NCBI RefSeq assembly: GCF_002970935.1
Contig: NZ_CP027194.1
Coordinates: forward strand, 558,001 to 622,000
DNA length: 64,000 nucleotides
Reading direction: 5' to 3'
Source of the DNA: Lactobacillus sp. CBA3606
GTDB lineage: Bacteria > Bacillota > Bacilli > Lactobacillales > Lactobacillaceae
Shown here: one piece after another, positions 14,236 to 15,309 of the stretch
How the letters are laid out: each line of letters starts with the position of its first letter
Numbering within the stretch: position 1 is the first letter of the stretch
Notes under the pieces: model-generated
What the model saw: the letters and a program-made list of their open reading frames with translations, nothing else
Told to the model about the DNA's origin: nothing
The model's database searches: none
Made by a program: the position numbers and the translations under genes

Positions 14236-14369
14236 AAGAGCAGTTTTATACCATCCTCAGGGCAAATAACTACCCGTAAAACGGGTAGTTTGCTCCAGGG
14301 CTATAAGCCCTATGTACTTGCCAGCGTCTCAAGGCGCTGGCTTTTGTGTATCAAAGCCAAACTGCTCTT
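14236..14369 (-). repeat. Structured 3' end of the IS200-like element
   Basis: A perfect 11-bp inverted repeat, AAGAGCAGTTT (14236-14246) and AAACTGCTCTT (14359-14369), encloses three further hairpins (14269-14289, 14297-14311, 14320-14341). Together they could fold as a multi-branched RNA of about 134 nt. The inner hairpins probably include the right-end recognition structure for the transposase. Confidence 0.6.
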
Positions 14370-14403
14370 GTCACTTTTGCCACCGCTTTAAGCGGTGTTC
14401 GTA

Positions 14404-14868
14404 TTACTTACCTTGACCCTTAAAAGGGTCCTCATATTCCCGAACACTCAAGCGATCTTCCGCTTGATCATGTTTCTCCTGATCACGGATATACTTCTTG
14501 ATGGTTGCCTCATTCAACCCAACTGTGCTGACATAATAACCAACTGACCAGAAATGTCGATTTCCAAATTTATATTTTAAATTCGCATGCTGGTCAAACA
14601 TCATCAATGCTGATTTACCTTTCAAATACCCCATGAAACTTGATACACTCAGCTTCGGTGGAATACTTACCAATAAATGCACATGGTCCGGCATCATATG
14701 GCCTTCCAAAATTTTTACGCCTTTGTATTGGCATAGTAATCGAATATCTTCTTGCAAATCACGTCGATATTGATTATAAATTATTTTTCTCCTATACTTT
14801 GGAGTGAATACAATATGGTACTTGCACAGCCATTTGGTATGCGCAAGACTATTTCGCTTATTCGCCAT
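14404..14868 (-). CDS. tnpA: IS200/IS605 Y1 HUH transposase
   Basis: 154-residue single-strand transposase. KYHIVFTPKYRRKIIYN is the family N-terminus, PDHVHLLVSIPP holds the HUH metal motif and the tyrosine nucleophile is in IKKYIRDQEKHD near the C-terminus. I start at ATG 14868 (MANKRNSLAHTKW), with AGGGG about 10 nt upstream; the frame is open 14 codons further upstream. All catalytic residues are present, so it should be functional. Confidence 0.92.
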   Translation of the reverse strand: MANKRNSLAHTKWLCKYHIVFTPKYRRKIIYNQYRRDLQEDIRLLCQYKGVKILEGHMMPDHVHLLVSIPPKLSVSSFMGYLKGKSALMMFDQHANLKYKFGNRHFWSVGYYVSTVGLNEATIKKYIRDQEKHDQAEDRLSVREYEDPFKGQGK

Positions 14869-15031
14869 TTCTGACGTCCCCTTTCGATTTTGAATGTTTG
14901 GCTCTGACACCTACATTCTAAATCTGATGGGGGCGTTTTGGTTTAACCATTTTGCCATCCGCCCGCATAGCGGGTGGTTTTTTGTTTCGCACGCTTTAGC
15001 GCGCTCAACTAGGCCTAAAGGCATAATAAAA

Positions 15032-15051
15032 AAGACGATCCTAGTCGTCTT
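15032..15051 (-). terminator. Terminator after the 15055-15309 ORF
   Basis: On the minus strand AAGACGA and TCGTCTT pair around CTAGGA, followed by TTTTTATT. It lies just outside the IS200 end. Confidence 0.7.
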
Positions 15052-15054
15052 ACA

Positions 15055-15309
15055 TCATGAATACATTTTCCAAATTAAATCATCAAGTTTTAACCCTTTC
15101 GGAGTTAATGGCTCATCCCCCGGCAGATAGGATTCATCTATGATTTCTCCAGTTATCATATCGTTCACCTTTTCTTCAACTTCATCTGGCACAACGAAGG
15201 GATACTTGAAATCATTATTAGAGTAACAAGAGAGAATTTTAAATATGTCAGGAAAATTCTTTTTAATAAAATCGACATCATTAGAATCCATGCGAAATTT
15301 CATACTCAT
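15055..15309 (-). CDS. Small acidic protein of unknown function
   Basis: 84 residues, acidic and soluble, starting MSMKFRMDSNDVDFIKKNFP and ending LDDLIWKMYS. I do not recognise a family. GGAAAGGAG precedes the ATG, and the ATG overlaps the stop of the upstream frame as ATGA. That coupling, the acidity and the broken upstream partner would fit an immunity protein left behind after loss of its toxin, but nothing in the sequence proves it. Base composition is AT-rich compared with the core genes. Confidence 0.55.
   Translation of the reverse strand: MSMKFRMDSNDVDFIKKNFPDIFKILSCYSNNDFKYPFVVPDEVEEKVNDMITGEIIDESYLPGDEPLTPKGLKLDDLIWKMYS

Follow-up and report, generated by a model that had tools for sequence, protein, structure and literature searches.

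A conserved many-hairpin right end in a TnpA-only IS200 element and insertion of its clade behind intrinsic terminators

The folded stretch at about 14266–14397 of the window (the whole 64,000 nt of Lactobacillus sp. CBA3606 DNA analysed here) forms the right end of an IS200 element that encodes TnpA alone and lies on the minus strand; this end is conserved and contains many hairpins. The clade to which this element belongs inserts directly 3′ of intrinsic terminators, and its members are mostly located there. A tentative explanation, to which we give slightly less than an even chance, is that this widespread Bacillota clade chooses its target by structure, such that the terminator (a hairpin and a T-rich tail of ~8 nt ending in ATT) would act as a surrogate right end, with the elaborate right end of the element as its counterpart.

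The element and its boundaries

The whole element occupies 14266–15024 on the minus strand, with its left end at ~15024 and its right end at ~14266, each to within about 3 nt. The right end was set by alignment of the copies present in the same genome, and the left end was placed by analogy with the empty sites of relatives; for the window copy itself, a search of 21 genomes of the genus gave no empty site, and neither did a search of plasmids with one of its flanks. Between the two ends, the sole long open reading frame is tnpA (14404–14868, minus strand), with no tnpB inside the element in the window. Its 154 aa product is a Y1 transposase (Pfam PF01797, E-value 2.2e-39), the HUH-type TnpA by which the IS200 group is recognised. 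The domain match and the alignment of copies bear out the earlier note, which had placed the fold at the 3′ end of an IS200 element with TnpA only. Features shared with the IS200 group are the Y1 TnpA, the lone tnpA, the end hairpins and insertion 3′ of a short target; the hairpins near the ends are hp3 on the left and D on the right (both described below), and insertion 3′ of a short target is seen in the empty sites of three relatives.

The 2.56 Mb genome carries three full copies of the element, one decayed copy and one that is internally deleted. This last copy, seen at loci L006 and L151, keeps hairpins A to C of the right end, with most of D gone. At the right tip, the window copy (14260–14275) and locus L270 are without the usual GATT, and may on that account be poor at transposition. 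Upstream of tnpA, at 14874–14936, ACGCCCC is accompanied by GGGGACGT, and similar inverted repeats are visible in relatives; pairing between the two might hide the ribosome site in read-through transcripts.

Six covarying helices at the right end

On the minus strand, the right end begins with hairpin A (14381–14397), which lies directly after the tnpA stop codon, is the first of the covarying helices, and falls beyond the coordinates of the earlier note. Helix P then closes a three-way junction, with its 5′ strand at 14364–14366 and its 3′ strand, included in the covariation count and positioned from the alignment, at 14319–14321. All three of its pairs change on both sides, and it is 3 bp long in most relatives and 2 bp in the window copy. 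Within the junction are hairpin A′ (14339–14358), where both sides change in 3/5 pairs, and hairpin B (14323–14338), which is also covarying and has an extended form that would compete with P and A′. These are followed by hairpin C (14297–14311), with a TTATA loop and changes to both sides of four of its five pairs, and by the terminal hairpin D (14266–14292), a covarying structure with arms like those of hp3 at the left end, and the probable recognition hairpin for TnpA.

The relatives comprise at least 80 TnpA loci from named genomes, in which the sequences align between the tnpA stop codon and the end of the element; the taxa concerned include Lactobacillaceae, Tetragenococcus, Enterococcus, Streptococcus, Staphylococcus, Bacillus, Veillonella and many Clostridia. 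Hairpin D was recognised in 97 of 111 TnpA-bearing loci, and 54 representatives of <93 % identity were chosen, leaving out sequences with N as well as L019 and L045. Alignment A1 contains 47 of the 54, the other seven being excluded because they are over-long, have long insertions in loops or carry a deletion; one of its members, L021, lacks most of hairpin A.

Mutual information reveals pairs that are missing from the minimum-energy fold, including columns 51–113 and 52–112, which close the three-way junction. With the six-helix structure, 91.5 % of cells across the 47 sequences are paired, and both sides change in 20 of the 35 pairs. The covariation score is 0.236, compared with 0.097 for shuffled alignments (0/500 as high) and 0.03–0.08 for slid controls. 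As the structure was read from the same alignment, these figures are partly circular, although the shuffles and slides lie far away. Six covarying helices thus bear out the impression, given in the earlier note, of more conserved structure than a single recognition hairpin needs.

A competing fold exists, in that columns 91–93 can pair with columns 110–112 as an extended form of B. The GCC between A′ and B has two possible partners, A′ and the far side of B (A1 columns 60–66, 89–93 and 110–112), and the two arrangements are mutually exclusive. Where column 112 changes, column 52 of helix P follows (GC in 33 sequences, AU in 10 and GU in 2), whereas column 91 gives G–T instead (9/47). This behaviour favours P over extended B, with a switch between the two still conceivable. 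Elsewhere in hairpin B, the pair 98–105 is mainly C–A versus T–G, with A–T and G–C in one relative each. The loop of A′ carries an extra long hairpin in some relatives (L062, L068, L091, L093 and L111), and hp2 of the left end is also extended in L062, L093 and L111.

The left end and its likeness to the right

Alignment of left ends defines three hairpins on the minus strand: hp1 (15013–15022; GCC-TTTA-GGC), hp2 (14984–15009) and hp3 (14959–14977), the last preceded by an A-tract. It is hp3 whose arms are like those of D, the 5′ arm reading CCACCCG or CCACCTG in 48/53 left ends, and that of D reading CCACCCG or CCACCCT in 49/54 right ends. Further resemblances are apparent by eye. Hairpin hp1 has a CTTTAG loop, as do A and B; the inner loop of hp2, TTGA...GAAA, is as in A′ of most relatives, the window copy being an exception; and C before D is mirrored by a small TTATA-type hairpin after hp3.

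Subfamilies with TnpA of ~48–63 % identity are, as judged by eye, mostly without hp1 and hp2 on the left and without A′ on the right. L158 and L168 are exceptions, with hp1 and hp2 present and no clear A′. Element by element, the left and right modules do not co-vary (again by eye). On the plus strand of the window, at 14954–14978, a T-run follows hp3, producing an arrangement that is terminator-like for transcripts opposing tnpA.

Insertion directly behind intrinsic terminators

The window copy stands behind a terminator-like sequence at 15025–15051 (minus strand; a hairpin, a T-tract and ATT), which is itself downstream of an open reading frame at 15055–15309. This intrinsic terminator of the host is directly 5′ of the element, and is its probable insertion target. 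The same arrangement recurs in the left flanks of other loci, where a hairpin and T-run come directly before the element, and where terminator and element have the same direction. With regard to the sample, 96 of the 111 loci have enough upstream DNA, and a left-end hairpin was recognised in 77 of them, the other 19 being unscored; the 77 yielded 68 distinct flanks with enough upstream DNA, from which four mis-called examples were dropped to leave 64. On a simple terminator score, 58 of these 64 left flanks pass, compared with 59/1726 random windows from the same loci (3.4 %). For right flanks, the corresponding figures are 2/59 in the sense direction and 4/59 in antisense. When the controls are limited to sites with TTTTN(1-2)TT, a hairpin is found in front of 59/64 insertions versus 187/764 control sites. 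Distant subfamilies, together with some further loci, were scored as a set of 23, of which 20 pass versus 20/306 controls. These 23 were chosen from 27 loci, the others being L169, which has no recognisable left end, and L136, L140 and L161, which fail the score (20/26 pass if they are counted).

Plasmids provide a closer view of the junction. Six plasmid insertions also lie behind terminators, as judged by eye, and for three of these six, which have insertion-free records, the junction immediately follows the ATT that closes a terminator tail, with the right junction off by one T in the comparison of L270 with L274. For two further plasmid insertions, no empty-site record covering 80 % of the query was found. 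Filled sites have ATT at each end and empty ones have it a single time, a pattern expected equally from an element that terminates in GATT and from a 3-bp duplication; the former is the rule in the IS200 family.

Between the last G/C of the terminator stem and the junction there are 7–11 nt in 45/59 cases, with a mode of 8–9. In the element's own right end, the core stem of D (CGGGTGG, followed by TTATGATT) is 8 nt from the junction, or 3 nt separate stem and cleavage when D is taken with its outer pairs (to column 172). The geometry of the terminators resembles that of the element's own right end, making them possible surrogate ends for TnpA. In target choice, the terminator hairpin and T-tract would stand in for the right end, and TnpA would be the protein that reads them. 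Survival bias on its own is unlikely to account for a position so narrowly defined, to a few bases and to one strand.

DNA end structure or transcribed RNA

With regard to what the right end does, we consider the chances roughly even that it is a DNA end structure acting mainly as single-stranded DNA in transposition, and a DNA end structure for the transposase is more likely than a guide RNA. The tnpA-sense strand would be exposed during transposition, with the right-end folds forming in single-stranded DNA. Hairpin D, ~8 nt from the cleavage point, would be the hairpin bound by TnpA and hp3 its left-end partner, whilst A, the P/A′/B junction and C may together form a longer end by which TnpA is recruited or positioned. 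Support for this reading comes from the copy-derived ends and the three empty sites of relatives, as well as from the covarying helices and the 26/36 loci with TnpA beside the domain. The similar hairpins of the left end count in its favour too, as does the spacing of 7–11 nt behind most terminator stems, set beside 8 nt behind the core stem of D. Against it are the exceptions L158 and L168, modules that do not co-vary, the 3-nt spacing obtained when D is taken with its outer pairs, and the fact that the right end is also the 3′UTR of tnpA. Furthermore, one hairpin of 20–25 nt per end suffices for published TnpA of this group, according to the portion of PMC6006769 available, which leaves the inner helices unexplained.

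The strongest competitor, less probable than a DNA end yet to be taken seriously, is a structured RNA in the 3′UTR of tnpA, either acting on the stability or translation of the mRNA or giving rise, by processing, to a small RNA encoded by the element. The domain is in sense orientation, directly after the tnpA stop codon, and its six covarying helices have conserved loops. The presence of two competing folds (P with A′, and extended B) would also suit an RNA switch. Moreover, Salmonella IS200 makes a structured RNA, though this comes from the 5′ end of tnpA (PMC12594629, in the portion available). Pointing the other way is the left end, which is upstream of tnpA and yet has similar hairpins; this likeness favours the DNA reading.

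Wobble pairing lends the 3′UTR RNA some support, without separating it from a DNA end. Using RNAalifold pairs, the right end has G–T and A–C cells in a ratio of 50:15, against 36:2 in the left end and 26:2 in a SAM-riboswitch control (an alignment of 30 sequences with similar identity). In the same terms, the right end is thus not poorer in wobble than the RNA control, and the left end, argued to be DNA, is also in excess. The right-end excess is mostly in hairpin A, which holds 34 of the 50 G–T cells, with nine in pair 91–112 (extended B) and seven elsewhere; outside hairpin A the ratio is 16:11, a small excess that counts against an RNA. On the six-helix structure of this study the ratios are 7:6 for P, A′ and C together, 3:12 for D, 9:40 for B (mostly from one pair) and 24:14 for A. 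The wobble picture is similar in 93 sequences aligned by covariance model, these being the distinct ones among the best 96 of 141 rows.

It is improbable that the right end serves as a transcription terminator, either for tnpA or for transcripts entering from outside. Its hairpins are GC-rich, and on the plus strand there are T-runs after B and after hp3 of the left end, as a terminator would have. On the sense strand, however, the right end of the window copy has no terminator-like site, the sequence after D in most relatives is TTATGATT or similar, and covariation across six helices is unneeded for termination. The strong terminator that the earlier note had offered as one option is not supported in the case of tnpA; a sense terminator was rejected for the window copy, which has no hairpin with a T-run on that strand of its right end.

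Distribution and the question of TnpB

Matches to the right-end DNA are present in 43/301 genomes of the family, and covariance model matches in 44/250 Bacilli genomes, the element's own genome being counted in both cases. By tblastn, TnpA is matched at 26 of 36 right-end loci; the 10 without a match include three at contig ends, with decayed or TnpA-less copies making up the rest. Amongst further, weaker matches, TnpA is found in 12/20 loci, and in 14/20 of another set, with the TnpA-less loci of both sets being contig ends, decayed copies or solo right ends. No multi-copy TnpA-less element, of a kind that would reveal the right-end parts required in cis, was found, just decayed or deleted single copies (L219 and L215). 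L219 had been considered as a TnpA-less family, and was set aside because its inner sequence also matches tnpA-bearing copies. Matches of 84–90 nt (G302, G350 and G528) are at contig ends where read, and were not counted as short variants. Hairpin D occurs solo, without the rest of the element, at L170, L173, L227 and L231, that of L170 being near a terminator; solo D copies look like decay.

Omega-RNAs are found at the right end of an element, with host flank directly 3′. The domain described here has the same position and the same 3′ neighbour, and nine PF07282 loci are present in its own genome, from which TnpB might serve it in trans, with the flank as guide. An omega-RNA-like guide RNA of this kind is nonetheless very unlikely. 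In a TnpB survey of 80 genomes (44 carriers, together with 36 of 206 non-carriers taken in list order), PF07282 was found in 14/44 carriers versus 18/36 non-carriers. TnpB is therefore absent from 30/44 carriers, making an omega-RNA role unlikely, yet it is present in half of the non-carriers surveyed. Rfam gave no match for the window at gathering scores, and none for the right ends of 13 relatives at E-values of up to 1. The earlier note had drawn a comparison with omega-RNAs, which these results do not favour, and had suggested checking whether a TnpB relative has the same 3′ region; the right-end covariance model, R1, matches 0/9 of the PF07282 loci in its own genome. Nor was TnpB seen, on reading by eye, among the open reading frames of the TnpA-less loci from the 36 and from the weaker matches. 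One carrier copy, in G391, is near a TnpB in the listed positions, and this TnpB sits in a separate element. The latter (L277, 632–2204) is a TnpA/TnpB element ~0.7 kb from the IS200 copy, with its own, different TnpA.

The outer 11-bp helix

The region 14236–14369 was originally described as a multi-branched fold closed by a perfect 11-bp repeat. The three hairpins and the repeat are indeed where the earlier note placed them, but its coordinates do not bound one unit. Sequence common to the copies stops at ~14266, and the 134-nt segment thus straddles the border of the element. The inner arm of the repeat (14359–14369, minus strand) is inside the element and overlaps helix P, and the outer arm (14236–14246, minus strand) is in host flank, ~20 nt past the element end; the conserved domain runs the opposite way from this outer arm, up to hairpin A.

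Compared with shuffled sequences, the 134-nt segment has a z of −7.7 on the plus strand and −5.8 on the minus strand, with 0/200 shuffles as good in each case; of the two, the minus-strand fold has the sense of the transcript, that being the strand of tnpA. The right end folded on its own, with the flank removed, again surpasses its shuffles (z of −5.7 as RNA and −7.2 as DNA). The outer arm is missing beside other copies of the element. A complement of at least 11 bp between element and flank occurs in 3/93 loci with 100 nt of flank (L001, L008 and L057), a sample that is not wholly independent, as some genomes are present twice and L001 and L008 are both the window insertion. In L057, the flank bears a partial second right end. 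When flanks are swapped between loci, such complements arise in 0.6 % of 3684 pairings. Their rarity among the 93 loci and in swapped flanks means that the outer helix is best read as chance. As a family feature it does not hold, since one arm lies outside the element and is not kept in other insertions, the outcome that the earlier note itself had named as refuting it. Compensatory change, proposed there as the test of the outer helix, is seen in the inner helices, whilst the 11-bp helix is not a feature of the family. That the whole multi-branched fold closed by this helix is one functional RNA can be dismissed almost outright, despite the perfect repeat and a z of −7.7, as the outer arm lies beyond the element and is not conserved in other insertions, and the inner arm overlaps conserved helix P.

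Relation to known systems and implications

The element shares with the IS200 group (IS200/IS605 family) a Y1_Tnp domain, hairpins near both ends and insertion 3′ of a short T-rich sequence. It differs in lying mostly directly behind intrinsic terminators, and in having a covarying six-helix right end, whereas TnpA of the IS200 group binds hairpins of ~20–25 nt, one per end (PMC6006769, in the portion available). A 132-nt right end with three potential hairpins is reported for IS605 elements of Halanaerobium, and is similar in that respect; those elements, however, bear tnpB, their hairpins overlap, and no covariation is described in the accessible part of the report (PMC7290912). The 5′tnpA RNA of Salmonella IS200 is likewise a structured IS200 stretch, as the present domain could be if transcribed, but it is located at the 5′ end of tnpA rather than the 3′ end (PMC12594629, of which a portion was available). 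Omega-RNAs (OMEGA) have in common with this domain a structured right-end stretch with host flank directly 3′, and differ in that here there is no TnpB in the element or in 30/44 carriers, and no Rfam match. REP elements with TnpA-REP are palindromes handled by a related Y1 protein, of which the solo D hairpins are reminiscent; here, however, the palindromes are the ends of an element with its own tnpA, and the solo copies are decay-like. Group IIC introns insert behind terminators, and may be set alongside this clade as having the intrinsic terminator for a target, although theirs is a retroelement ribozyme and here there is a DNA transposase.

Neither a six-helix right end nor terminator targeting by IS200 appears in the titles and abstract openings found, which come mostly from the open literature, with most subscription papers outside the search; priority is not claimed for either. 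The portion of PMC9208149 available has nothing on terminator targeting or on a right-end domain.

If the proposed reading is true, one transposase family would have an end architecture far richer than published single-hairpin models. A target rule derived from folded single-stranded DNA would steer insertions to safe places behind genes. Both points would be testable in lactic acid bacteria, and the rule would be usable for designed insertion at terminators. The case also serves as a warning that structured right ends of IS200/IS605 elements are not always guide RNAs.
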